Shown here: positions 43,110-58,585 of the stretch, piece after piece
Numbering within the stretch: the first letter of the stretch is position 1
Layout: the number at the start of each line of letters is the position of its first letter
Origin: Mycobacterium sp. MS1601
Lineage (GTDB): Bacteria > Actinomycetota > Actinomycetes > Mycobacteriales > Mycobacteriaceae
DNA length: 64,000 bases
Assembly: GCF_001984215.1 (NCBI RefSeq)
Contig: NZ_CP019420.1
Location: forward strand, 2,728,001-2,792,000
Direction: 5' to 3'
Made by a program: the position numbers and the translations under genes
Notes under the pieces: generated by a model
Told to the model about the DNA's origin: nothing
The model's input: only the letters and a program-made list of their open reading frames with translations
Databases searched by the model: none

Positions 43110-43773
43110 GCAGCCCGTTGCGCTGGTCACCGGCGGCGCCAGCGGTATCGGCGCGGCGGTGGTCGACGCGCTGACCGCCCGCGGGTTCAGTGTGGGCATC
43201 CTCGATCTCGCTGTAGGCGTGGATGTTTCGGACCCCACCGCCGTCACCGACGCCGTGGCACGCCTGCGTGATGAACTTGGTCCGGTCAGCGCGGTGGTGA
43301 CCGCTGCCGGCCACTACGAGATGGCGCCCGCGGCCGAGATCACTGCCGAGGCCTGGCATCGGATGCTGCGGGTGCACCTGGGCGGGCTGGTCAACGTGGC
43401 ACGTGCAACGCTTCCGGATCTGATAGCTCGGCGCGGAGCCCTGGTGGCGGTGGCCAGTGAGCTCGCCGTCGGCGGCGGTGAGCACGACGCGCACTACGCT
43501 GCCGCCAAAGGCGCGATCCTGGGGACCGCGCGCAGTCTCGCTGCCGAGGTGGCGCATCACGGTGTCAGGGTGAACTGCGTGGCACCTGGGCCCACCGATA
43601 CCCCGTTGCTGGCGCCAGATTCGCCGTGGCGGGCAACCGAGTACCTGGCGACGTTGCCATTACGCCGGCTCACCAAGCCCACCGAGGTGGCGCGCTGTGT
43701 GGAGTACCTGGTGTGTGACGCGACCTTCAGTGTCGGTGACGTGGTCAACGTGAACTCAGGAGCGGTGATTTGA
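43102..43773 (+). CDS. Short-chain dehydrogenase/reductase
   Basis: The ATG at 43102 overlaps the permease stop; a longer upstream frame is readthrough. The 223 residues carry the cofactor motif VTGGASGIGAAVV and the active-site YAAAK in AHYAAAKGAILG, preceded by a catalytic Ser in VAVASELAVGG. NVNSGAVI ends the protein. It should oxidise or reduce a hydroxyl/keto group with NAD(P). It is translationally coupled to a second SDR gene. The substrate is unknown. Confidence 0.92.
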   Translation: MTEQPVALVTGGASGIGAAVVDALTARGFSVGILDLAVGVDVSDPTAVTDAVARLRDELGPVSAVVTAAGHYEMAPAAEITAEAWHRMLRVHLGGLVNVARATLPDLIARRGALVAVASELAVGGGEHDAHYAAAKGAILGTARSLAAEVAHHGVRVNCVAPGPTDTPLLAPDSPWRATEYLATLPLRRLTKPTEVARCVEYLVCDATFSVGDVVNVNSGAVI

Positions 43774-44534
43774 GTACCGATCTACGCGGGCGCGTTGCGT
43801 TGGTGACCGGCGCCGCCCAGGGGATGGGCGCCGCGCACGCTCGACGGCTCGCGGCGGCCGGAGCCACCGTCGCGGTCAACGATCTTCGTGACAGTGCCGA
43901 ACTGACGGCGCTGGCCACCGACATCGGTGGGTTCACCGCCGCTGGTGACGTCGCGGACCGGGGCGAATGTGCACGCATCACAACCGAAGTGACGCAGCAA
44001 GCCGGACGGCTCGACATCCTGGTGGCCAACCACGCGTACATGACCATGGCGCCGTTGCTCGACCACGACATCGACGACTGGTGGAAGGTGGTGGACACCA
44101 ACCTGGGCGGCGCCTTCTTCCTGGTGCAGGCGGCGTTGCCGCACATGCGAGCCCAGGGCGCTGGTCGCATCGTGATGATCACCAGCGAGTGGGGAGTCAC
44201 CGGATGGCCGCAGGCCACCGCGTACGCCGCCTCCAAGTCAGGACTGATCTCTTTGGTGAAGACCCTGGGCCGGGAGTTGGCCGCTGAACACATCATCGTC
44301 AACGCCGTGGCACCAGGGGTGATCGACACCCCGCAACTGCACGTCGACGCCGACGCAGCCGGGGTTGGCCTCGATCAGATTCACCGGCAGTACGCGGCGG
44401 CTATTCCCTTGGGCCGCATAGGATCACGTGAGGAGGTTGCTGCGGCGGTGGAGTTGCTGTGTGACTTCGAGATGGAAGCGATTGTAGGACAGGTGGTCTC
44501 GTGCAATGGCGGATCGACCAGGACCCGTGTCTAG
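43770..44534 (+). CDS. Short-chain dehydrogenase/reductase, TTG start
   Basis: The start is TTG at 43770, overlapping the previous stop, with caggag about seven bases upstream. The 254 residues contain RVALVTGAAQGMGAAHARRL, NHAYMTMAPLL, the catalytic Ser in IVMITSEWGVTG, and YAASKSGL. The C-terminal CNGGSTRTRV resembles classical SDRs. Two consecutive SDRs in one operon may act on successive alcohols or epimers. The next gene begins 9 bp downstream. Confidence 0.92.
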   Translation: MSTDLRGRVALVTGAAQGMGAAHARRLAAAGATVAVNDLRDSAELTALATDIGGFTAAGDVADRGECARITTEVTQQAGRLDILVANHAYMTMAPLLDHDIDDWWKVVDTNLGGAFFLVQAALPHMRAQGAGRIVMITSEWGVTGWPQATAYAASKSGLISLVKTLGRELAAEHIIVNAVAPGVIDTPQLHVDADAAGVGLDQIHRQYAAAIPLGRIGSREEVAAAVELLCDFEMEAIVGQVVSCNGGSTRTRV

Positions 44535-44543
44535 GAGGATGAC

Positions 44544-45512
44544 GTGACCAGCGAACCTGACGTGCGGTCAGCGTCGGCAACCGTGGGGCAGGTGGACGCT
44601 CAACAGGTACCGCGGTATGCCGGCCTGGGCACCTTCGCCCGACTTCCGCAGTGCCGTGACGTCGAACGTTACGACCTTGCCGTCATCGGAGTCCCGTTCG
44701 ACAGCGGTGTCACCTATCGTCCTGGCGCACGGTTCGGACCGTCGGCGATCAGACAGGCCTCCCGTCTGCTCAAGCCCTACAACCCTGCCCTCGACGTGGC
44801 TCCGTTCGCGGCGATGCAAGTGGTGGACGCCGGCGACATCGCTGCCAATCCGTTCGACATCGAGACCGCGGTGGCGCAGGTGTGTGCCGGCATCCTCGAT
44901 CTGGTGCCGGATCCCGCCCAGCGTTTTGTGCTCCTCGGCGGTGACCACACCATCGCGCTGCCCGCACTGCAAGCAGTCAACCGCCACCACGGACCGGTTG
45001 CGTTGGTGCACTTCGATGCTCACCTCGACACCTGGGACACCTACTTCGGAGCGCCGTGCACCCACGGCACCCCGTTCCGGCGGGCAGCCGAACAAGGTCT
45101 GTTGGTCAAAGGGCATTCGGCGCACGTCGGCATCCGCGGATCGTTGTATGACCGCAAGGATCTGCTGGACGACGCCGAACTGGGGTTCACCGTTGTGCAC
45201 TGCCGCGATATCGACCGCATCGGTGTCGACGGCGTGATCGAACGCGTACTGCAGCGGGTGGGAGGGCATCCGGTGTATGTGTCGGTGGACATCGACGTGC
45301 TGGACCCCGCCTTCGCACCGGGCACCGGAACACCGGAGATCGGCGGCATGACCAGCAGGGAACTGGTGGCGGTACTGCGCGCGATGCGTGCGCTCAACAT
45401 CGTCGGTGCCGACGTGGTGGAGGTGTCTCCGGCCTACGACCATGCCGAGGTGACCGCAGTGGCCGGGGCCAACATCGCCTACGAGTTGATCAGCCTTATG
45501 GTCGACGGATGA
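44544..45512 (+). CDS. Agmatinase-family ureohydrolase
   Basis: The GTG at 44544 follows aggagg. The 322 residues have the binuclear manganese motifs of the arginase/agmatinase family: LLGGDHTIALP (His135), HFDAHLDTWD (residues 157-166), and SVDIDVLDPAFAPGTGTPE. It should hydrolyse a guanidino compound to urea and an amine. Agmatine, guanidinobutyrate, guanidinopropionate or a related substrate is possible. Neighbouring SDR and deacetylase genes are not typical for plain agmatine use. Its stop overlaps the next start. Confidence 0.93.
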   Translation: MTSEPDVRSASATVGQVDAQQVPRYAGLGTFARLPQCRDVERYDLAVIGVPFDSGVTYRPGARFGPSAIRQASRLLKPYNPALDVAPFAAMQVVDAGDIAANPFDIETAVAQVCAGILDLVPDPAQRFVLLGGDHTIALPALQAVNRHHGPVALVHFDAHLDTWDTYFGAPCTHGTPFRRAAEQGLLVKGHSAHVGIRGSLYDRKDLLDDAELGFTVVHCRDIDRIGVDGVIERVLQRVGGHPVYVSVDIDVLDPAFAPGTGTPEIGGMTSRELVAVLRAMRALNIVGADVVEVSPAYDHAEVTAVAGANIAYELISLMVDG

Positions 45513-46372
45513 GCCAACTCAGCTGGCCCGACGGTAAGCGTGCCGCTGCGGCGTTCACCTTCGACGTCGACGCGGAGTCGGCTGTGCTCTGGGGCAACGC
45601 CGAGGTGGGCGCCCGGATGAGTGTGATGAGCCATCAGGCGTACGGGCCACTGGTGGGTATTCCCCGGATCCTGGATCTGCTGGAGCAGCACCAGATCCGG
45701 TCGACGTTCTTCGTGCCGGGCCACACCGCCGACCGCTACCCGGACGCGGTGCGCAGCCTTGTGGCTGCCGGGCATGAGATCGCCCACCATGGTTATCTCC
45801 ACGAGCAGCCCACGCAGTTGACGCTGGAACAGGAAATCGAAGCCCTGGACCGTGGTCTGGCGGCCCTGTCCGACGTGGCGGGGGTTCGGCCGGTGGGGTA
45901 CCGGGCACCGATGTGGGACCTGTCGTGGCGTACCCCGGCGCTCCTGGCGGAGCGGGGATTTCTCTACGACTCCAGCCTGATGGACGCCGACCACCCCTAC
46001 GAATTGGCCGTCACACCCGGCGCGGACCAATCGCTGGTCGAGATCCCCATCCAGTGGGCGCTCGACGACTGGGAGCAGTACTGCTTCCTGCCGGACCTGT
46101 CCGGCAGTGGGTTGATCGAGAGTCCACGCAAGGCGCGGGAACTGTGGCAGTTGGAGTTTGACGGGTTGCGCCGGGTTGGCGGGTGCTGGGTGCTGACCAA
46201 CCATCCGTTTCTGTCCGGCCGACCCTCACGTGCCTTCGAGTTGGGTGATCTCATGCGCTACGTGCTGGACCACGCTGACGTCTGGGTGACGAATCTGTCC
46301 ACGATCGCCGAACACGTTCGTGGGCTGGGGCTCCCACCCAGGTCCATCACGCCTCCGGCTGTTCCCCGCTGA
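45509..46372 (+). CDS. Polysaccharide deacetylase-fold hydrolase, PuuE-like
   Basis: The 287-residue protein has the NodB-type catalytic motifs: TFDVDAESA near residue 18, STFFVPGHTADRYPDAV, and GHEIAHHGYLHE. It lacks a signal peptide. Cytosolic members with FDVDAE act on small cyclic amides, such as allantoin or cyclic imides, rather than on glycans. That fits a nitrogen-compound cluster. The ATG overlaps the ureohydrolase stop by four bases. Its last 26 bases overlap the convergent TetR gene. Confidence 0.88.
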   Translation: MSQLSWPDGKRAAAAFTFDVDAESAVLWGNAEVGARMSVMSHQAYGPLVGIPRILDLLEQHQIRSTFFVPGHTADRYPDAVRSLVAAGHEIAHHGYLHEQPTQLTLEQEIEALDRGLAALSDVAGVRPVGYRAPMWDLSWRTPALLAERGFLYDSSLMDADHPYELAVTPGADQSLVEIPIQWALDDWEQYCFLPDLSGSGLIESPRKARELWQLEFDGLRRVGGCWVLTNHPFLSGRPSRAFELGDLMRYVLDHADVWVTNLSTIAEHVRGLGLPPRSITPPAVPR

Positions 46373-47002: not shown

Positions 47003-47989
47003 TCAGCCGTGCAGTGTCTGCTGTGGCGACTTCCCGTAGGCCTGCCGGTAGTGACGTGCGAAGCGGCCCCGGTGGGCGAACCCCCATCGGGTGGCGATCT
47101 GGGACACCGACGTCGTGTCCGGGTTGGAACTCACCAGCTCGCGGTGGGCGTGCTCGAGTCGCACCCGGCGGACGTATTCCATAGGGGTGCAGTCCAGCTC
47201 GCGGCGAAACATGTACTGCACCCCGCGTGGGGTCATGTTCACCTGCTTGGCGATGTCGACGATGGAGATGTCGGTTTGCGCCGACTCGTCGATGTAGGCG
47301 ATGGCCCGGCGCAACAACGCGGCCTTGGGCCCCCCGCGGTCGGCCGCCGTGGGTTCGAGCTGGGCATTGGTGGGGAAGGTGGCCAGTACCACCGCCGCCA
47401 GGTGCATGGCGGCGGTGGAGGTCACCAGCTGCGAACTGGAGATCTCCGGATTCATCCGCACCCGTTCGCGCAGATATCCGATGAAGGCGCCCAGCTGATT
47501 GCCCGCCGCACGGGAGACGGGACGATGCCCCGTCAGCTTCACGTGAGCACCCGTGTCACCGGGGCTCGCCACCCGGTCCAATTGGTCGGGGTCCAGCATG
47601 GTCGCGTGGTAGACGGCTTTGCTCACCTGGCCGGAGTAAGCGGTGTCGGGCGGGGTTATCAGGGCGACGTCGCCAGGTGCCAGGACATCGCGGACCTGGC
47701 CGAACCTGGTTTCGATGTGTCCGGAATGCACCTGACCCACCGGCACTTTGTTCAGTGGCAGGACGGTGAAATCCATGTCGAAGCTGAAGGCCAGCGAATC
47801 CAGGCTGACCGGCCCCAACCATCGTCGGTCGACTTGAGTTCGGGTGGGCTGCCCCCGCCCGCCGATGCGCATCGCGGTGTAGGCCTCGGTGAGGAAGTCC
47901 TCGGTTTCGGCCAGATCAAAGCTCTCGAAATGGAGATCGTCCAACGGTAACCCCCCGGTATAGGCAGGCCATGACTCGACCCGCAGCAT
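47003..47989 (-). CDS. AraC family transcriptional regulator
   Basis: This 328-residue protein has an N-terminal AraC-binding-like domain and a C-terminal DNA-binding domain with HTH halves SIVDIAKQVNMTPRGVQYMFRRELDCTPMEYV and VSQIATRWGFAHRGRFARHYRQAYGKSPQQTL. It belongs to the mycobacterial AraC group that often controls adjacent oxygenase or membrane genes. The 182-bp gap to the small zinc-ribbon gene should hold its promoter. A role in controlling the betaine genes to the right is possible but unproven. Confidence 0.92.
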   Translation of the reverse strand: MLRVESWPAYTGGLPLDDLHFESFDLAETEDFLTEAYTAMRIGGRGQPTRTQVDRRWLGPVSLDSLAFSFDMDFTVLPLNKVPVGQVHSGHIETRFGQVRDVLAPGDVALITPPDTAYSGQVSKAVYHATMLDPDQLDRVASPGDTGAHVKLTGHRPVSRAAGNQLGAFIGYLRERVRMNPEISSSQLVTSTAAMHLAAVVLATFPTNAQLEPTAADRGGPKAALLRRAIAYIDESAQTDISIVDIAKQVNMTPRGVQYMFRRELDCTPMEYVRRVRLEHAHRELVSSNPDTTSVSQIATRWGFAHRGRFARHYRQAYGKSPQQTLHG

Positions 47990-48171: not shown

Positions 48172-48273
48172 ATGCTCGATTTCATCTGCCCCACCTGCGG
48201 TTCCTTCGGCTTCGACGAGGCGGATTGCGGGGCCTGCGACGGCCGCGGCGATGACGTGAACGTCACTCGCTAG
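48172..48273 (+). CDS. 33-residue zinc-ribbon microprotein
   Basis: The ATG at 48172 has a gggagg ribosome site about eight bases before it. The product has four Cys in two CXXC pairs: CPTCGSFG (Cys6, Cys9) and CGACDGRG (Cys19, Cys22). The second matches the DnaJ-type CXXCXGXG signature, so one zinc could be held. The frame ends in VTR-stop. Its TAG shares CTAG (48270-48273) with the stop of the convergent BCCT gene, the same arrangement as two other gene pairs in the window, which supports it as a real gene. Confidence 0.6.
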   Translation: MLDFICPTCGSFGFDEADCGACDGRGDDVNVTR

Positions 48274-50009
48274 TCGCTGTCCTTCGGCCCTGCGGTGTCG
48301 AGTTTGTGGTACCGGGTGACCAGGTCGAAGTTATCGCCGTAGTGGCCGGCGCCGGTGACCACAGCACGCTCCACCAACTCGGTGCTGCGACGGTCGACGA
48401 TGACGATTCTGTCGTTGCGCAGGTCTTTGTACAGCGCCACGCACAGCAGCACCATGACGATCACGAAGGGCACGGCCGCGACGATGGTCAGGTTCTGCAG
48501 GCCGGTCAAGGCGTCTGCGCCACCGCCGCCGATGATCAGCATGATCGCGGCGACGGCGCCGGTCAGCGATCCCCAGAACACCACCGTGGCACGGCGGGGT
48601 TCGTGCGAACCGCGTTCGGACAGTGAGCCCATCACGATCGAGGCGGCGTCGGCGCCCGAGACGAAGAAGATCGCCACCAGCACCATGACCAGCACGGTGG
48701 TTATCCCGGCCAGCGGCAGGGTGTCGAGCAGCTGGAACAGTGCGCCGGTGCTGTCGACCGCGCCTTCGGCGTCGACCATGTCCCCGACCGTGCGCTGGCG
48801 TTCGATGCCTGCACCGCCGAAGATCGCGAACCACATCAGGCTCACCAGGGTGGGAACCAGCAGCACGCCGGTGACAAATTGCCGAATGGTGCGTCCACGG
48901 CTGATGCGGGCGATGAACATGCCGACGAACGGCGTCCACGACACCCACCACGCCCAGTAGAAGATCGTCCAGCCTGACAGCCAGGCCGCCAGTTCAGCGT
49001 CGCCGTTGGCGTCGGTGCGCGAGCTCATCGCCACAAAATCGCGGATGTAGTCGCCGAGCGCGCTGGGGATCAGATTGAGGATCAACAACGTCGGGCCCGC
49101 AACGAAGACGAACACCGCGAGTACCAGCGCCAGCACCATGTTGATGTTCGACAGCCACTGGATGCCACGGGCGATGCCGGAGACGGCGGATGCGATGAAC
49201 GCGATGGTCAGAACCGCGATGATGGTGACCAGGATCGGGGTGCCGACGCTGCCGACCCAGCCGTTGAAGACCAGGCCGTCGCCGATCTGCAGGGCGCCCA
49301 GGCCCAGTGAGGCGGCGGACCCGAACAGCGTGGCGAAGATGGCCAGGATGTCGATGATCTTGCCTGCCGGACCGTTGGCGCGATCGCCGAACAGTGAGGT
49401 GAAGGCTGCCGACAGCAAGCCGGACCGGCCCTTGCGGTACATGCCGTACCCGATGGCCAGGCCCACCACCGCATAGATGGCCCACGGGTGCAGGCCCCAG
49501 TGGAACATGGTGGTGGCCATCGCGGTCTGGAACGCCTCGTCGGACTGCGCCTCGCTGGTTCCCGGCGGCGGCGTGACGAAGTGGTTGAGCGGCTCGGCGA
49601 CGCCCCAGAACATCAGCCCGATGCCCATTCCCGCGCTGAACATCATGGCGATCCAGGAGATGGTGCGAAACTCTGGCTGCTCGTCGTCACATCCCAACGG
49701 GATCCGGCCGTATTTGCTTGCGGCCAGCCACAGTACATAGATCACGAAGAAGCTTGCGGCGAGGACGAAGAACCAGCCCAGCCCTTTGATCGCGGCGTCT
49801 TTGGTGCCGGCCGACACCGCGGACAGTCCGGGGGTGTCCACCAAACCCCAGATCACGAACGCGATGGAGATGGCACCGGTGACGCCGAAGACCACCCAGT
49901 CGCGACCCGGATTGGGGTCCGTGGGCGTGACTGGTGTGGTGATGGGCGTCAGCGGATGCGGATTGTCGTCGGAGGCGGATTCGGAAGCGCTGTTCGTTTC
50001 GATCGACAT
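48270..50009 (-). CDS. BCCT family transporter (betaine type)
   Basis: The 579 residues have a charged N-terminus and twelve predicted helices. The core has GMGIGLMFWGVAEPLNHF and the Trp-rich substrate box GWTIFYWAWWVSWTPFVG followed by RISRGRT, as in BetP. It would import glycine betaine, choline or a related quaternary amine with sodium or proton. It lies just downstream of a betaine-catabolic operon on the same strand, 85 bp from the serine deaminase gene. Two operator-like sequences at 50032-50066 lie 23 bp before its ATG. Confidence 0.94.
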   Translation of the reverse strand: MSIETNSASESASDDNPHPLTPITTPVTPTDPNPGRDWVVFGVTGAISIAFVIWGLVDTPGLSAVSAGTKDAAIKGLGWFFVLAASFFVIYVLWLAASKYGRIPLGCDDEQPEFRTISWIAMMFSAGMGIGLMFWGVAEPLNHFVTPPPGTSEAQSDEAFQTAMATTMFHWGLHPWAIYAVVGLAIGYGMYRKGRSGLLSAAFTSLFGDRANGPAGKIIDILAIFATLFGSAASLGLGALQIGDGLVFNGWVGSVGTPILVTIIAVLTIAFIASAVSGIARGIQWLSNINMVLALVLAVFVFVAGPTLLILNLIPSALGDYIRDFVAMSSRTDANGDAELAAWLSGWTIFYWAWWVSWTPFVGMFIARISRGRTIRQFVTGVLLVPTLVSLMWFAIFGGAGIERQRTVGDMVDAEGAVDSTGALFQLLDTLPLAGITTVLVMVLVAIFFVSGADAASIVMGSLSERGSHEPRRATVVFWGSLTGAVAAIMLIIGGGGADALTGLQNLTIVAAVPFVIVMVLLCVALYKDLRNDRIVIVDRRSTELVERAVVTGAGHYGDNFDLVTRYHKLDTAGPKDSD

Positions 50010-50031
50010 CGGAGAGCTCCTAACGGCGTCT

Positions 50032-50066
50032 GTTGCGAATTGCGCACGTGTTGCGTATTAAACAAC
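50032..50066. promoter_or_regulatory. Tandem GTTGCG-type operator-like sequences before the BCCT gene
   Basis: Two 17-base elements, GTTGCGAATTGCGCACG at 50032 and GTTGCGTATTAAACAAC at 50050, are spaced 18 bp from start to start. The second agrees with the element at 57042 at 14 of 17 positions. The IclR regulator in this cluster is a likely binder. Confidence 0.6.
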
Positions 50067-50094
50067 ATCTGGAGATAAGGTGCCGGATAACCGC

Positions 50095-51462
50095 TTAACA
50101 CTCCACGACGTTGAGGGCCAAACCTCCCAGCGAGGTCTCCTTGTACTTGTCTGCCATGTCGGCTCCCGTGTCGCGCATGGTCTTGATTGCGGTGTCGAGG
50201 CCGACATGGTGGGTGCCGTCACCCCGCAGTGCCATCCGGGCGGCCGTGATGGCCTTCACCGACGCCACCGCATTGCGTTCGATGCACGGGATCTGAACCA
50301 GGCCGCCTACCGGATCGCAGGTCAGGCCGAGATTGTGTTCGATACCGATCTCCGCTGCGTTCTCGACCTGGGCCGGCGTCCCGCCGAGCACCTCGGCCAG
50401 TCCGGCCGCCGCCATGGCGCATGCCGAGCCCACCTCGCCCTGACAGCCCACCTCGGCGCCCGAGATCGAGGCGTTGGTCTTGCACAGGATCCCCACTGCA
50501 CCTGCGGTCAGCAGGAACCGGACCACCGCGCCGGCGTCGAACCCGGGAACGTAGTCCCGGCAGTAGTGCAGCACCGCGGGCACGATGCCGGCTGCGCCAT
50601 TGGTGGGCGCCGTCACCACCCGGCCGCCTGCGGCGTTCTCTTCGTTGACCGAAAGCGCGTACAAGCCAACCCAATCCATGGCGGCAAGAGGGTCGGCGGA
50701 GTCGCGTTCCTGCTCCAGTCTGGCGCGCAGTGCCGCAGCTCGACGACGCACCTTCAGTGCGCCGGGTAGCACACCGGTGCCGGTCATCCCGCGGTCGACG
50801 CACTGCTGCATCACCTGCCAGATGGCCAGCAGGTCGGCGTGCACCTCCTCGGTGGGGCGCATGCTGGCTTCGTTGGCCAACATCAGATCGCTGATCCGCC
50901 AACCGGTTTTACCGGTCAGTGCCAGCAACTCCTCGGCCGTGCGGAAGGCGAACGGTACCGGCGCGGTGGAATCGCCACCGCGAGTGGCTATCTCGTCCTC
51001 GTCGAGAACAAAACCGCCGCCGACTGAGAAGTATTCGCGCACACCGAGTGTGCCGCCGGCACTGTCGGTGGCTGTGAAGCGCATACCGTTGGTGTGCTGC
51101 TCCAGCCGCCGGCCCATGTGTAACGCGATGTCGTCGGCCGCGCGGAACCGGATGCTCTGCGCCCCGGCAAGTGTCAGCCCCCGGCTCTTCTCCACGGTGG
51201 AGAGCAGGGCGGGAATGGCGTCGGGGTTCACGGTCTCCGGCCGCTCGCCCAGCAGGCCCAGCACCACTGCGCTGACCGTGCCGTGGCCCACCCCGGTGGC
51301 GCCCAGCGAGCCGAACAGCTCCACGTGCACGCCGGCGGTGGCGGTCAGAGCACCGCGCCGGTCCAGCCATTCGACAAAGCGGGTAGCTGCCCGCATCGGC
51401 CCGACAGTGTGTGAACTCGACGGTCCGATACCGACTTTGAAGAGTTCGAAGACGCTGATCAC
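50095..51462 (-). CDS. sdaA: L-serine ammonia-lyase (serine deaminase), iron-sulfur type
   Basis: The 455-residue single-chain enzyme begins [23 protein letters not shown], typical of this family. Likely cluster-binding Cys are in [29 protein letters not shown], together with a nearby conserved [11 protein letters not shown]. It converts serine to pyruvate and ammonia. In this operon it completes conversion of betaine-derived glycine, made into serine by a GlyA encoded elsewhere, into central metabolism. It starts 11 bp after the IclR gene. Confidence 0.95.
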
Positions 51463-51473
51463 GGGAGGTTCCG

Positions 51474-52277
51474 TCAGCCGACGTAACCGAGGCGGCGACT
51501 GATTCTCTCGGCGGCCTGTGTGGTCAGCACTGCGACGTCGCGGAAACGGTCCGGCGCCAGCCGATAGGCAGGCCCTGAAACGCTGAGCGCCGCGATCACC
51601 TTTCCGGTGCTGTCACGAACTGGTGCGGCTACCGCATTGAGTCCCACCTCGAGTTCCTCGGTGACGCTCGCCCAGCCGGCTGTACGTGCCTGATCCAGCT
51701 CGACGGCAAGCGTTTTAACGTCGGCAATGGTGTTGTCCGTGAAGGTCGGCAGCTTCTCGCCGAGCAGCTCCCGGACCGCGGCCGGCGGAAGTGCCGACAG
51801 CAGTGCCTTTCCGCTGGAGGTGGCATGCGCGGGGCAGTTCTGACCCACCCAGGTGCGCAGAGTGATCTCGGCGGGTCCGTGTGCTTCGACGATGTTGATG
51901 ATCCGGTCACCGTCGAGGATCGCGATGTTGGTGGTCTCGCCGCTCTGCTGTGCCAGTTCGTCGCAGACGGGCTGGCTCTCCTTGGCCAGATCCATCTGTG
52001 CGCTGGTGGAACCGGCCAGCCGGACGATGGTGAATCCCAGCCGGTACTTGCCGCGATCGGAGAGCTGCTCGACGAAACCCCGGGACTCCAGGACGGTGAT
52101 CAACCGCGACACTGTCGATTTGTGCACACCGAGTTCCGTCGCGATCTCGGTGACACCGGCCGAACCGAACTTGCCGATGATCTCCAGCACCATCAGTGCG
52201 CGATCGACGGACTGAACTGCCGCGGGGGCCTTCTCGTGCGGGATATCTGCAACCATGGCGCGTCCCAGTGTAAACAT
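51474..52277 (-). CDS. IclR family regulator of the betaine operon
   Basis: I start at the ATG at 52277, which shares a base with the Rieske stop (TGATG); the ATG at 52256 is an alternative. The 267 residues contain a winged helix ([44 protein letters not shown]) and an effector domain ([24 protein letters not shown]). It lies inside the catabolic operon, so it is probably autoregulatory. The tandem 17-base elements before the BCCT gene and the first operon gene are its likely sites. Confidence 0.92.
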
Positions 52278-53458
52278 CACGACCTCAGCCTGGCCTGCAC
52301 CCATTGGTGGAACTCGACGATGTGGTGTTCAGAGGGCACCAGCACGCCCCCGTTGCGGTACGCCCGCGACGACATGGCAGGCTGGGTACGTTCACACGCC
52401 TCGAAGTCCTGGACGTTGACCCGATGGAAGAGCTCCACCGAGCGGTCGAGGTCACGTCCGGCGGCCACCACGTCGGGCAGATACAGCCAGTCGCATTCGA
52501 CGATGGTGCGGTCCGCCGCCATCGGGTACATCCGGTGGAAGATCACGTGGTCGGGCACCAGGTTGATGAACACGTTGGGCCGCACCGTGATCGCGTAGTA
52601 GCGCCGGTCCTGGTCGGAGGTGACACCGGGAATGGTGTCCAGGCCGGGGCTGCCGTCGATGGTGAATCCTTCGACGTTCTCCCCGAACAGCGCGCCGTGG
52701 CCGACGAAGTATTGTGCGGCCAGCCCGTCGGCAAACTCGGGCAGCACCTCGGTGAGCTCGGGATGAATGGTGGCGCAGTGGTAGCACTCCATGAAGTTCT
52801 CGACGATGAGTTTCCAGTTGGCGGCAACGTCGTAGACGACCCGGCGCCCGACCACAAGATCCGCCACCGCGTAACTGTCCACAGCGCCGGCATCACCCAG
52901 GCGCTCGGTCACCGCACCCATGACGTCGGCCTCGAAGGATGGCGGCTCGGCCGCCAGGCACACCCAGACGTAGCCGAGCCATTCCCGCACGGCCACTTTC
53001 AGCAATCCATACTCGGTTCTGTCGATGCGTGCTCCGGTCTCATCGGTGAGTGAACCGAGATTCGGTGCAGCGAAGAGCTTTCCGTCCAGGTTGTAGGTCC
53101 AGGCGTGGTAGGGGCAGCGTAGGTGGCGCTTGACCGTTCCGGAGTCCTCGGTGCACAGCATGGCCCCGCGGTGGCGGCACACGTTGAGGAAGGCGTTGAG
53201 TGCACCGTCTTTGGCGCGCACCACCAGCACACTCTCCCGGCCGACCTGGACCTTTTTGAAGGCGCCGGGCGACGGCAGATCGGCGACCCTGGCGGCGCAG
53301 AACCACATCCGTTCGAAGATGTGTTCCTGCTCCGATTCGAAAATCGTTCTGTCGGAATAGAACCCGCCGCCGAGGGTGGGCATCAGGTTGCTCCCCGGGG
53401 CGGGGGTGCTGAACGTCGTCGGATCTGGGGCGCCCAGGGGGGCATCGACAGTGGTCAT
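52277..53458 (-). CDS. Rieske-type oxygenase large subunit, glycine betaine monooxygenase-like
   Basis: The 393 residues have the Rieske cluster ligands Cys94 and His96 in NVCRHRGA, and Cys115 and His118 in RCPYHAW. The mononuclear iron site is in [16 protein letters not shown]. The sequence resembles GbcA, which removes a methyl group from betaine to give dimethylglycine and formaldehyde. It needs an electron-donor reductase (GbcB); none is in this window. Its ATG overlaps the sarcosine oxidase stop by four bases. Stachydrine demethylases are close relatives, so another quaternary amine is possible. Confidence 0.9.
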
Positions 53459-54597
53459 GTGGTCACCAGTCGCCGGGGGTTGAAGAGCCCGATGGGATGG
53501 GGGGTGTCTCCGGTGACGGCGAGGTCTGCCAGGACCTCGCCGACGACGGGGACGAACTTGAAACCGTGTCCCGAGAAGCCGCACGCCACTGTGACATTGG
53601 TGAATCCGTCGGGACGGGTGATCACGAAGTGCTCGTCGGGGGTATTGGAGTACATGCAGGTGGCGGTGTGGACGGCAGGGCCGGTGAGCGCGGGAAGCAG
53701 CTGCGTCGCCCGCTCCCGCATCTCGTTGATCTCTTGTTCGTGCACCGTGCGGTCGATGGTCTCCGGTGTACAGACCTGGCCCTTGCGGAAGAAGGCCACC
53801 TTGACTCCACCGTCGGGGCCGTCGATGGCCGGGAAACCGTAGATCTGCATGCCTGCGGTGTCCTCGCTGATGAAGATCGGGTGGTCGACGAACGGTGTTG
53901 TGCCGCTGTCCGGTTGGAGCCAGTACAGCACCTGTCGCTCGATGGTGATGGGGATGCCCAGTTCGGTCAACAGCGACGGCGCCCAGGCTCCCGGGCAGAT
54001 CACCAGCTGACCAGCGGTGTAGGTGCCGCGCGCAGTGGTCACCCGGACCCCGGACGGACCGTCCTGCCATGACTGCACCTCCTCACCGAAGCGCAGTTCC
54101 GCGCCTTCACGGGCGGCGAGGTCGAGGTGTGCCTGCACCGTCATCTCGGGTCGGGCGAAGCCCGCCTTCGCCTCGTACAGGGCGACATCACCCGGCGCGG
54201 GCGTCAAAGTCGGGAAACGCCTGCTGATCTCACCGACGTCGAGCATCTCATGGTCCAGGGACCACTCCTGGGATGCGCGCAGGCTGCCCGCCACCGTCAG
54301 GCAGTCCGGTGCACCCATGAACAGACCGCCGGTGAGGCGGTACACCTCCAGGCGCGTGCTGTCGGCCAGTTCTGCCCACAGCTCGTAGGCGCGCAGCAGC
54401 AGCGGCACGTAGGCGGGATCCTCGAAATAGGACTGCCTGATGATGCGCGAACCGCCATGGCTGGAGCCTTTGTCATGGGCGGGGGTGAACTTCTCCAGGC
54501 CCAGCACCCGTACCCCACGCCGGGCCAGGTGGTACGCCGCGGCGCTGCCCATCCCGCCGAGCCCCACGACTATGGCGTCGAAGCTGTTGTCGTTCAA
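53455..54597 (-). CDS. Monomeric sarcosine oxidase-like FAD enzyme
   Basis: I start at the TTG at 54597 ([16 protein letters not shown]), with ggaggt at about eight bases, giving 380 residues. The FAD motif is [19 protein letters not shown]. The segments [21 protein letters not shown] and [19 protein letters not shown] are typical of MSOX/N-methyltryptophan oxidase, and the Cys in [11 protein letters not shown] may carry covalent FAD. It should oxidise sarcosine to glycine, formaldehyde and hydrogen peroxide. It is five bases downstream of the dimethylglycine oxidase gene. Confidence 0.9.
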
Positions 54598-54602
54598 GGC
54601 TG

Positions 54603-57029
54603 TTACCTCCGGATCAGTATCATGTCGGGATCGACCACCGGCTCGGCGGTGACCACCGCGGTGTAGGTCGAGGTCAGGTAGGCGACAGTCACGGGGTCTC
54701 CGATCGCGATCTCGGCGGGCAGCCATGCGTAGGCGATGCTGCGTCCGATGGTGGCCGAGTAGCCGGCGCTGGTCACATAGCCCACCACCTCACCACTGAC
54801 GCTGACCGGTTCCTTACCCAGCACCACAGCGGCAGGATCGTCGAAGACGATGCTGCGCAACATGGTCGAGGGTGGACCGGCCGAATCCAGTGCGGCTCTG
54901 CCCAGGAAGTCGCCCTTCTTGCCGGACACCGCGAAGCCGACTCCCGCTTCGGCGGGCAGGTGTTCGGCGGTCATGTCGGTGCCCCAGGAGCGGTAGCCCT
55001 TTTCCATCCGCAGACTGTTGAAGGCAATGCGGCCGGCGGCGATTGCCCGGTACTCGGCACCCGCGGCGAACAGCAGGTCCCAGAGCTTGAGACCGTGCTC
55101 GGCCGAGGTGTAGATCTCCCAACCGAGCTCGCCCACGTAGGAGACCCGCATCATCGTCACAGGCACCGATCCGATGAAGGTGCTGATCGCCTTGAAGTAT
55201 CCGAATGTGTTGTGTGAGATGTCCGCTGCACACAGCGGTGCCACCAGGTCGCGGGCCCGCGGGCCCCACACCCCGATGCAGCAGGTGCCGCCGGTGATGT
55301 CGCGGACGGTCACGCCACTCTCCGGCAGGTGACGGGTGATCCAGTCCAGGTCCAGAGGTCCGTTGGCGCCCACCTGGAAGGTATCGTCGGTCAGCCGGGC
55401 GACTGTGAGATCACTTCGAATGCCACCGGTTTCGTCGAGCATCAGCGTGTATGTGACCGAACCGGGTCGTTTGTCGACATTGTTGGTGGTCAGCTGCTGC
55501 AGGAAGGCGCAGGCACCCCGCCCGCTGATCTCGTAGCGGGTCAACGGCGTCATGTCGTACAGCGCCACGTATTCCCTGGTCCAGCGTGCCTCGGCGATCG
55601 AGATGGTGGAGTAGAACTGTCCCGACCAGTCGTCGCGCTCTGGGAAAGCCACTCCGGCAGAGGCGAGTTCGTCCACCAGCGCCGCATTTGCCTGGTACCA
55701 CGCGGGGCGTTCCCAGCAAGCGCCCTCGAAGAAGAACGCGCCGAGGTCCTGCTGCCGGGAGTAGAACGGGCTGACCCGCAGTTCTCGTGGGTCGGAGCGG
55801 TACTGGTGCGGATGGATGATGTCGTAGACCTCGACGAAACCCTGCGAGCTGGTCTTGAGGATGAACTCGGGGCTCTTCGCGGGCTCTTCGAAGCGGTACA
55901 GATCGCACTCGTGGACGTCGGTGCCGGGAGTGCCGTCGACAATCCACTCCGCCATCGCCTTGGCCACCCCGGCCGAATGCGTCACCCAGACTGCCTCGGC
56001 CACCCAGAAGCCGGGCAGGTCACGGTGCTCACCCATGATCGAGAAGCCGTCGGGGGTGAAGGAGAAGATGCCGTTGAAACCCTCTTCGTACTTTGAATCA
56101 CCCAGCGCTGGAAGCAGATCGGCGCTGGCGGCCCAGGCGGGGGCGAAATCGTCGTCGGTGAACGGCAGCATGGAGGGCATGGGCTCGCCGGCGGTGTCGG
56201 TGAGCAGGGTGGTCATGTCCACCGGCATGGGCCGGTGTCCGTAGAAGCCGATGCCGAGACGGTCGCCGTACTCGCGGTAGTACAGGTCCTTGTCCTGGTG
56301 GCGCAGGATCGGCATCCGAGGATCGGTGTTGCCCTGCAGGTCGGCCAGCTGCCCGGTCTTGGCGAACTGGTGTGCCATCGGGACCAGCGGCACTGTCAGG
56401 CCCACCCTGGCGCCCAGCTGGGCGCCCCAGAATCCGGCGGCGGACACCACCACGTCGGCGGCGAACTCGTCGCCGGAGGCGGTGCGGACTCCGACCACGC
56501 GGCCGCCGCGCTCGAGCACGTCGACCACTTCCTGGTGACCCAGGAACGTCGCGCCCCGTTCGGTGGCACGCTCGGCCTGGGTGGTTGCGGCCGCCAGTGC
56601 CTTGGCCAGACCGTCGGTGGGGGTGTGGAAACCGCCCAGGATGCGATCGACGTCCAGGAGAGGGTAGAGCTGCTTGCACTGCTCGGCGTCCAGGAGTTGC
56701 CCGGGAATGCCCCAGGACCGGGCCCACCCGAGTTTGCGGTGCAGATCGGTCCAGCGCTGCGGCGTGGTGGCGATCTCGAGCCCGCCGACCTGCTGGAAGG
56801 CGCCCAGGCGGGAGAACTTCTCGACGGTGTAGCGGGCGAATTCGGTCATGGTCTTGGACCCGTTCGTCTGGAACACCAGACCGGGTGCATGCGACGTCGA
56901 CCCGCCTGTGGTGAAGAGGGGCCCGCGGTCCAGGACGGTGACATCGGTGCACCCACGGGCGGTCAGTTCGTCGGCCAGCGACGTCCCGACGATTCCTGCG
57001 CCGACGATGATGATCTTCGGGGTGGCCAT
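54603..57029 (-). CDS. FAD/GcvT fusion oxidase, dimethylglycine oxidase-like
   Basis: I start at the ATG at 57029, preceded by aggag; the longer upstream frame lacks support. The 808 residues join an N-terminal FAD domain ([35 protein letters not shown], with the His likely to hold FAD) to a C-terminal aminomethyltransferase (GcvT) domain with [18 protein letters not shown] and a folate-binding barrel. It should convert dimethylglycine to sarcosine and pass the one-carbon unit to tetrahydrofolate. It is the first gene of the five-gene betaine operon. Tandem operator-like elements lie 13 bp before its ATG. Confidence 0.92.
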
Positions 57030-57041
57030 ACCTGAGCTCCT

Positions 57042-57076
57042 GTTGCGCATAAAGCAACTAATGCGTGATGCGCAAC
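57042..57076. promoter_or_regulatory. Tandem GTTGCG-type operator-like sequences before the betaine operon
   Basis: GTTGCGCATAAAGCAAC at 57042-57058 has 5-base inverted arms. At 57060-57076 is AATGCGTGATGCGCAAC, whose complement begins GTTGCGCAT. They are 18 bp apart, exactly as at 50032 and 50050. The shared spacing argues for a common regulator, most likely the IclR protein. Confidence 0.62.
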
Positions 57077-57166
57077 AATATCCACCGGGGTGGCCTACCG
57101 CAACCTCTGCCGTTCTACGTATTTTCGCCGGTGCGCACGCCGGGCGGAGCTTTCTACGCTGACGCG

Positions 57167-58585
57167 ATGCCCGATAGCCAACTGTGCTGGACTCCTGCCA
57201 CCGTGCTCGCCGACCAGATCCGCTCCGGCGCCGTTTCGACCACCGAGGTCGCAACAGAGTTCGCCGACCGGATCGAGGCCGTCAACCCCGCGCTGAACGC
57301 CTACATCCACTTCGATCGTGAGCAGGTGTTGGCCGATGCGGCGCAACTGCAGGCCGAACTCGACGCGGGCACTCCCCGTGGACCCCTGCACGGCGTGCCG
57401 TTCTCCATCAAGGGTCTGACCACCATGGCGGGCCTGCCCTTTGATTCGTCGCTCAAGCCACTGGCAGGCACGGTGGGGACGCACGACGCCACTGTCGTCA
57501 CCCGGATGAAGCAAGCCGGCGGCCTGTTCCTGGGCAAGACCAACGCCCCTGAATTCGGTTACTACGGAGGTACCGACAGCCACCTCTACGGACCCACCCA
57601 CAACCCCTGGAAACCCGGTCACACCGCGGGCGGCTCCAGCGGAGGCGCCGCGGCCTCGGTGGCCGCCGGTCTCGGACCGCTGGCCGAGGGCGCCGACGGC
57701 GCCGGATCCGTACGCATCCCGGCGGCCATGTGCGGAGTTGTCGGCTTCAAGCCGTCGCTGGGCCGCATTCCCCACACACTGCTCGACGGGCGGCACTACA
57801 CACACATCTTCCACGGGCCCATCACCCGTACGGTCGGCGACGCGGCACTGATGTTCTCGGTGATGGCCGGCGTATCGGATTCGGATCCGAACTCCGTGCC
57901 CGCCGACGGCATCGATTACGCCTCGGCGGTCCGGGGGGACATCACCGGGTGGCGGGTCGCATGGTCGCCCGACCTGGGTCTGGGTTACGTCGATCCCGAG
58001 GTGGCCGCCGTCTGCGCCGAGGCGGTGAAGGCATTCGAGGCGTTGGGCGCCGTGGTGGAGGAGGCGACGCCGGACTGGGGTGACCCCGAGGAGGCGATGT
58101 GGAAGGGCCTGTGGGTGCCCGGCTACTCGTGTGAGTACGACGTCCTGGACTGGAAGTCGTTGGGCGGGCAGGTCGACGACTTCCTCATCGAGATCTTCGC
58201 GCAGGCCGAGACGCTGACTGCTGTCGAGATCGGCCGTGCGGAGGCGTTCCGCGGCCGGATGTGGGACACCTTCAGCGCCTTCATGCGCGATTACGACCTG
58301 GTGGTCAGTCCGACGTTGGCGTCCGCGACATTCCCGCTGGACCGGTTTGCACCCGCTTGGCTGGACGGGCAGTCGTTGCAACGGCGGTTGCTGGGCTGGC
58401 TGCTGACGTACCCGTACAACATGACGACCACGCCGGCCATCTCGGTGCCCGCGGGATTCACCTCCGACGGCAGGCCGGTCGGGTTGCAGATCGCGGGTAG
58501 GCACCGCGCCGACGCCTCGGTGCTGAGGGCCGCCGCCAACTACGAGGCTGCCAGGCCGTGGGCTGCCGTGATGCCTGCGTTGTGA
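57167..58585 (+). CDS. Amidase signature family hydrolase
   Basis: From the ATG at 57167 the protein has 472 residues. The Ser-cisSer-Lys site is present: Lys in PFSIKGLTTM, and the Gly/Ser-rich HTAGGSSGGAAASVAAGL with the nucleophile Ser in EGADGAGSVRIPAAMCGVVGFKPS (Gly-Ala replaces the usual Gly-Gly). It should hydrolyse a small amide; the substrate is unknown. It is divergent from the betaine operon and 91 bp after the tandem operator, so co-regulation is possible. It overlaps the convergent LuxR-type gene by 46 bp. Confidence 0.92.
   Translation: MPDSQLCWTPATVLADQIRSGAVSTTEVATEFADRIEAVNPALNAYIHFDREQVLADAAQLQAELDAGTPRGPLHGVPFSIKGLTTMAGLPFDSSLKPLAGTVGTHDATVVTRMKQAGGLFLGKTNAPEFGYYGGTDSHLYGPTHNPWKPGHTAGGSSGGAAASVAAGLGPLAEGADGAGSVRIPAAMCGVVGFKPSLGRIPHTLLDGRHYTHIFHGPITRTVGDAALMFSVMAGVSDSDPNSVPADGIDYASAVRGDITGWRVAWSPDLGLGYVDPEVAAVCAEAVKAFEALGAVVEEATPDWGDPEEAMWKGLWVPGYSCEYDVLDWKSLGGQVDDFLIEIFAQAETLTAVEIGRAEAFRGRMWDTFSAFMRDYDLVVSPTLASATFPLDRFAPAWLDGQSLQRRLLGWLLTYPYNMTTTPAISVPAGFTSDGRPVGLQIAGRHRADASVLRAAANYEAARPWAAVMPAL

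Follow-up and report, generated by a model that had tools for sequence, protein, structure and literature searches.

A putative IclR-type regulon with paired operators at a probable glycine betaine uptake and demethylation locus of Mycobacterium sp. MS1601

We analysed a stretch of 64,000 nucleotides from Mycobacterium sp. MS1601 (contig NZ_CP019420.1, positions 2,728,001 to 2,792,000), hereafter called the window, in which the minus-strand genes dmgO-soxA-gbcA-iclR-sdaA and a gene for a BCCT transporter are accompanied by two pairs of palindromes. Pair A (50031-50067) stands before the BCCT gene and pair B (57041-57077) before dmgO; neither has a strand, and each consists of two 19-bp dyads placed 18 bp apart. 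We estimate a probability of about three in four that the genes form two transcription units under one local regulator of the IclR family, which would act as a tetrameric repressor and would be released by a metabolite derived from betaine. The genes and paired elements described in the initial annotation of this DNA are real. Its interpretation is partly supported: gene content and site scans argue for a betaine uptake and demethylation unit with two shared paired operators, but several of its details had to be revised.

Paired palindromes in the window and their distribution

Each dyad is an inverted repeat of the form TGTTGCG-N5-CGCAACA, starting at 50031 and 50049 in pair A and at 57041 and 57059 in pair B. 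The initial annotation had reported a 17-base element with the consensus TGCGNATNNNNCAAC. The positions of its four 17-mers (50032/50050 and 57042/57060, 18 bp apart) were reproduced, as was the identity of the best two copies (50050 and 57042) at 14 of 17 positions; the element is real, but it represents only part of the 19-bp palindrome. Measured from the ATG, the proximal dyad centre precedes dmgO by 21 bp and the BCCT gene by 31 bp, so that the centres are at -21/-39 and -31/-49, respectively, directly upstream of the Shine-Dalgarno region. With palindromes in tandem near a start codon and a centre distance of 18 bp, both pairs fall within the 18-22 nt range of the tandem operators described for IclR-family proteins.

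A genome-wide scan of the element had been called for, and the proposal withstood it: with up to three mismatches, the paired pattern occurs at only these two places in the genome (6,829,132 bases) and nowhere in the reversed control. Within the window, the pattern gave four matches (two places on both strands), compared with none in 100 shuffles. The single dyad was rejected as a marker, being not above chance with 341 genome matches versus 587 in the reversed control, and the whole-genome pattern scan found no pair with a 19-bp period in this genome. Compared with the closest relative seen (G319, with a GbcA 93% identical), the two sites together differ at four bases, all of them in the N5 spacers, which account for 20 of the 74 positions. 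Judged by eye in a three-way genome alignment, the half-sites are more conserved than their flanks.

The pairs are widespread at loci encoding GbcA in other Actinomycetota. We gathered 117 distinct loci, comprising 40 from the host order (out of 61 places with at least 564 bits) and 80 of the 444 encoding a relative, minus three duplicates. The set of 80 includes Mycolicibacterium, Rhodococcus, Nocardia, Gordonia, Geodermatophilus, Amycolatopsis, Streptomyces, Nonomuraea, Terrabacter, and other genera. With a score of at least 21/28 and all periods between 8 and 40 bp permitted, 212 pairs were detected in 104 of the 117 loci, with periods of 18 bp (25 pairs), 19 bp (165), 20 bp (10), and other values (12), whereas the reversed sequences of the same loci gave 13 pairs in 13 loci, two of them at a period of 18-20 bp. 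The window has the rarer period, 18 bp, and both periods are mixed in some loci, as in L095 and L105 with 18 bp before iclR and 19 bp before dmgO. No pair was located inside a mapped gene (0/61 and 0/157), and 72 of 100 cases (50 sites, both strands counted) have A and T at site positions 9 and 30, which were not scored. The best pair score in shuffled loci (three shuffles for each of 40 loci) was 17-20/28 versus 19-25 in the real ones; these ranges overlap, and the weakest loci are therefore not distinguishable from chance.

Among 249 genomes of the host order, the 19-period pattern was found in 51 and the reversed pattern in one. It is present in 39 of the 58 genomes with a GbcA orthologue versus 12 of the 191 without (Fisher p 8e-21, uncorrected for kinship), GbcA status having been sorted by hand with seven low-identity matches counted as lacking the orthologue. 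Within the own genus, 13 of 148 genomes contain the 18-period pattern (10 of the 33 with GbcA and 3 of the 115 without), and two contain the reversed pattern.

Seven of the 12 GbcA-negative genomes with the 19-period pattern belong to one genus (g39), and we read the regions from six of the 12 (G200, G196, G081, G040, G100, and G240). In G200, the pattern accompanies one FdhF-like and one dmgO-like gene, the latter with 50% identity; in G040, it was found with a more distant dmgO-like gene (36%) close to purU, and in G196 with a gene resembling those for 2-hydroxyacid dehydrogenases. The matches in G100 and G240 (L223 and L224) were rejected as real sites, as they lie inside open reading frames and look like chance. 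In G081, a 19-period pair (L212, G081:C2:101476) coincides with the start of a gene for another Rieske oxygenase (assigned by Pfam), 29% identical to GbcA. GbcA-positive genomes also carry pairs away from gbcA: with iclR, betB, purU, dmgO, glyA, and an OpuAC-type betaine transporter gene in G087 and G003, with a ProV-type transporter gene in G215, with dmgO-soxA-iclR in G118, with a dmgO-like gene in G231, and with a 2-hydroxyacid dehydrogenase gene in G239. Thirteen regions were fetched around sites found by the pattern alone, away from gbcA, and in three of them (L210, L211, and L214) iclR adjoins the pair. In two genomes from different genera (L215 and L209), the pair precedes a gene for a 2-hydroxyacid dehydrogenase of the phosphoglycerate type.

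The IclR-family regulator and its proposed action

The regulator gene iclR (51474-52304, minus strand, with an alternative ATG start at 52256) is the proposed source of the protein binding both operator pairs. Its product belongs to the IclR family, with Pfam HTH_IclR at 54.6 bits and IclR_C at 153.4 bits, both above their cut-offs, and its structure model has a mean pLDDT of 87.8. The genome contains 16 IclR-family genes (E<=1e-8), the runner-up to the operon's own being 36% identical; one paralogue (35% identity) is found inside the window at 799-1455. An IclR relative of at least 44% identity is encoded in 101 of the 117 loci, and 31 of the locus proteins form one clade (support 0.978) that leaves the 15 own-genome paralogues outside. 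The recognition helix reads GVHKST in the window protein; HKS is invariant in all 31 locus proteins, and HKST is found at this place in no other of the 16 IclR proteins of the genome. The arrangement of the sites corresponds to the tandem palindromes with centres 18-22 nt apart, most often centred at -22, that the main text of Suvorova and Gelfand (2021; PMC8222616) describes for 94 orthologous groups of IclR-family regulators. The window shares with these systems the spacing, the position (-21 and -31 here), and, presumably, the regulation of the regulator's own gene together with adjacent operons. The half-site spacing fits their subgroup GTT-11-AAC, whereas the half-site interior GTTGCG differs from the general GKTYCRY. 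Because of the locus clade, the helix, the relatives at the loci, and the published tandem architecture, the IclR protein encoded in the operon is the likely binder of the pairs, as the initial annotation had suggested.

In the mechanism that we favour, dmgO-soxA-gbcA-iclR-sdaA and the BCCT gene would be two units, with the regulator encoded in the first. Two IclR dimers, together a tetramer, would occupy the adjacent 19-bp dyads of each site, close to where ribosomes bind at the first gene. They would cover either the promoter or the beginning of the transcribed region, thereby blocking transcription, including that of iclR itself. Betaine, dimethylglycine, or sarcosine could free IclR, and uptake, demethylation, and iclR would then be turned on together. 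The best NCBIfam relative of the regulator is BhcR (NF045644; 186 bits, far under the cut-off of 350), an IclR-family protein of Paracoccus. In a comparison based on one alignment to AllR and our own mapping of positions, the five positions that bind oxygen in the effector domain of IclR/AllR include three that are changed here (Ser163, Ser164, and Val214) and two that are kept (Ser241 and Ser243); Trp152 of the effector domain is invariant. In the list of five such pocket residues for IclR/AllR/BhcR (PMC11323563), the positions are 160, 161, and 212 (Ser, Ser, and Val here) and 239 and 241 (serine kept). The changes at three of five positions weaken glyoxylate or pyruvate as the effector by homology and give at most a hint of a different ligand.

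Several observations weigh against this mechanism. No pair reached the threshold in 13 of the 117 loci, and 16 of them lack an IclR protein at 44% identity or more. The 12 GbcA-negative genomes with the pattern indicate that it has associations beyond GbcA. Repression was deduced from site position alone, as a promoter scan of both sites recognised no sigma-70-like promoter at either pair. The main rival explanation keeps the same sites and regulator but makes IclR an activator or dual regulator that recruits RNA polymerase when inducer-bound, as do PobR/PcaU-type members and BhcR, which is required for target expression according to the accessible text (PMC11323563). Some dmgO-linked pairs in relatives are located 80-243 bp upstream, which could suit activation; their positions include the range from -79 to -82 and others farther than -100. 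However, a bound activator at the positions of the window pairs would overlap or follow the promoter, and 19 of the 53 dmgO-linked pairs are found at -19 to -23. We consider activation unlikely, and repression by the tetramer the better explanation.

Gene content, substrate, and neighbouring genes

The first gene, dmgO (54603-57029, minus strand), encodes 808 residues with an FAD domain and GcvT-like folate domains (Pfam DAO, FAO_M, GCV_T, and GCV_T_C), the composition of a full-length dimethylglycine oxidase. Queried as 54675-57029, without the last 24 codons, it matches the solved N,N-dimethylglycine oxidase 1pj5, presumably from Arthrobacter globiformis, over nearly the whole chain (982 bits, residues 2-784). 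Judged by sequence, the assignment as dimethylglycine oxidase is secure. The next gene, soxA (53455-54597, minus strand), begins with TTG after GGAGG and encodes an enzyme of the monomeric sarcosine oxidase type. Its closest solved chain is sarcosine oxidase 7exs (316 bits), with N-methyltryptophan oxidase 2uzz lower (205 bits), and the sarcosine oxidase assignment follows from these solved relatives; the NCBIfam rule alone would call it N-methyl-L-tryptophan oxidase (PRK11259, 468 bits, cut-off 257), and its score of 307 is below the soxA_mon cut-off of 480 (TIGR01377, monomeric sarcosine oxidase), which speaks against our assignment. The gbcA gene (52277-53458, minus strand) encodes a Rieske oxygenase, probably the oxygenase component of a glycine betaine monooxygenase. 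It carries Pfam Rieske and Ring_hydroxyl_A, and residues C95, H97, C116, H119, H228, H233, D352, and E225 are invariant among ten aligned orthologues, a conservation that identifies a Rieske non-haem iron oxygenase; we take these residues to include the Rieske CxH...CxxH and the mononuclear-iron His/His/Asp set. The iclR gene is followed by sdaA (50095-51462, minus strand) for L-serine ammonia-lyase (TIGR00720, 669 bits, cut-off 345) and, 85 bp further, by the gene for the BCCT transporter (48270-50009, minus strand), a probable glycine betaine importer that scores 534 bits with TIGR00842, above the cut-off of 408. In the order of the operon, the junctions are a 5-bp gap (dmgO/soxA), a 4-bp overlap (soxA/gbcA), a 28-bp overlap (gbcA/iclR), and an 11-bp gap (iclR/sdaA). 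A spacing of 11 bases or less, or overlap, as first reported, therefore holds for the listed starts, but the gbcA/iclR junction becomes a 20-bp gap if iclR begins at the ATG at 52256.

The substrate deserves separate consideration. The best NCBIfam match of the Rieske protein is GbcA (NF058607), but at 223 bits against a cut-off of 670 it is not accepted, so that the protein can be said to work like, rather than to be, a GbcA of the Pseudomonas type. Its closest solved chains are 3vca (165 bits), 4qup (164 bits), and carnitine monooxygenase 6y8j (146 bits), and the BCCT protein remains under the cut-off of the betaine BCCT model (NF047988, 568 versus 650). These scores would suit a unit for the degradation of another methylated amine, such as proline betaine, carnitine, or a related compound. 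However, dmgO and the sarcosine oxidase gene share the operon, gbcA is linked to dmgO (at least 45% identity) in 82 of the 117 loci, and genes of the betA/betB type stand beside the same sites in relatives, so that these genes together outline the route from choline through betaine and dimethylglycine to sarcosine. From the accompanying genes, and not from the oxygenase alone, we infer that the gbcA product acts on glycine betaine, and we regard another amine as quite improbable.

The unit is not complete, contrary to its first description: glyA, whose product would link glycine to SdaA, and a ferredoxin reductase gene were not found in it. That a monooxygenase reductase gene is missing is correct for the unit, to which this statement is limited, as no genome-wide search was made for a homologue of the GbcB type (FNR-type). 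In relatives, such genes stand beside the pairs. Counting the loci of 117 with a pair of score 20 or more and a period of 18-20 bp, the commonest neighbour is a ferredoxin reductase gene (67 loci), followed by iclR (51), dmgO (43), gbcA (22), betB and formaldehyde dehydrogenase (18 each), betA (17), purU (16), Rieske ferredoxin (13), glyA and BCCT (10 each), and an FdhF-like oxidoreductase (3). Each new class was named from one representative: Pyr_redox_2 plus Reductase_C (Pfam) for the reductase, Rieske for the ferredoxin, choline dehydrogenase at 826 bits (cut-off 732), PurU at 349 (286), S-(hydroxymethyl)mycothiol dehydrogenase at 696 (513), serine hydroxymethyltransferase at 587 (335), the FdhF/YdeP family at 987 (582), and betaine-aldehyde dehydrogenase at 592, under its cut-off of 669. 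The reductases are of the BphA4 type, as exemplified by L099:4687-5991, L053:4126-5325, and L051:4154-5506, often with a Rieske ferredoxin gene alongside, and probably provide the betaine oxygenase of actinobacteria with electrons. The genome of the window has six matches to them, the best 42% identical, and none has a pair nearby (L218-L221 lack pairs). In the near relative G172 (L051), two pairs separate dmgO from the divergent reductase and formaldehyde dehydrogenase-like genes, and iclR is followed by a third pair and then by glyA-sdaA. In view of this arrangement, the sdaA gene of the window seems to be what is left of such a glyA-sdaA module.

That another regulator binds the pairs while IclR does something else, for instance the AraC-type protein encoded beside the unit at 47003-47989 (94 bits with AndR, cut-off 350; 43 bits with GbdR, cut-off 480; kept in G319 at 72%), is highly improbable, since none of the initial 40 loci has its gene and only one of the 80 others does (L152, 45%; E<=1e-15) whereas the sites are in 104 of 117, since palindromes 18-20 bp apart are of the IclR type, and since iclR so often adjoins the pairs. 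On the same distribution, the AraC-type gene was rejected as a member of the unit. The amidase gene 57167-58585 (plus strand) is divergent from dmgO, and pair B is situated in its upstream region; kept in G319 (91%) and in 0 of 120 other loci searched, it was rejected as a unit member, yet it may be a local neighbour under pair B. Upstream of the unit, at 43770-46372, SDR-like, agmatinase/arginase-like, and polysaccharide-deacetylase-like genes, named by eye, stand in a row.

Relation to known betaine regulons and meaning

In Pseudomonas, betaine catabolism is controlled by GbdR and SouR, activators of the AraC type, and the accessible text of PMC4894688 places glyA1 and sdaB in this catabolism under GbdR. 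In Vibrio natriegens, glyA1 and sdaB are clustered with gbcA, gbcB, and soxBDAG in the accessible part of PMC12093977. SdaA is hence no departure from the Pseudomonas layout, contrary to what had been claimed. According to the accessible parts of both papers, the Pseudomonas regulon and the window share the pathway and a serine dehydratase, and glyA, purU, betA, and betB are shared with the relatives of the window. The differences are an IclR-type protein in place of the AraC-type activators, a one-chain dimethylglycine oxidase and monomeric sarcosine oxidase instead of DgcAB and SoxBDAG, and the lack of an adjacent gbcB. The IclR-type regulator does differ from GbdR control, as initially noted, but with relatives at most loci it is not peculiar to this genome, and IclR control of betaine loci appears to be common in Actinomycetota.

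The architecture is already known, and the regulon is a new and well-supported one of a known kind. We found no description of an IclR-controlled betaine regulon in the searchable literature, a search that did not extend to most subscription journals; betaine, sarcosine, and choline are absent from the main text of PMC8222616, and its supplementary tables, also outside this scope, may list the group.

Taken jointly, the observations allow a broader proposal, for and against which we see the odds as even. One orthologous IclR protein might regulate choline, betaine, and dimethylglycine catabolism in much of Actinomycetota as the counterpart, from another protein family, of GbdR/SouR. It would sense a methylated glycine with a remodelled IclR pocket, and its control would extend to demethylation, the supply of electrons, the recovery of one-carbon units by folate, and the removal of formaldehyde. 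The oxygenase would typically be fed by a co-regulated Rieske ferredoxin and BphA4-type reductase as a three-component system, unlike GbcAB, and the organism of the window would have kept two operators only, having lost glyA and the co-regulated reductase. As an osmolyte, betaine is abundant, and its breakdown yields one-carbon units at the formaldehyde level and peroxide, and the regulators of this pathway that we have met in print, GbdR and SouR, come from Pseudomonas. A searchable site pattern would predict betaine users among actinobacteria together with genes of the route, such as the ferredoxin reductase beside gbcA, and may offer a direct way to find which methylated amine the IclR protein senses.

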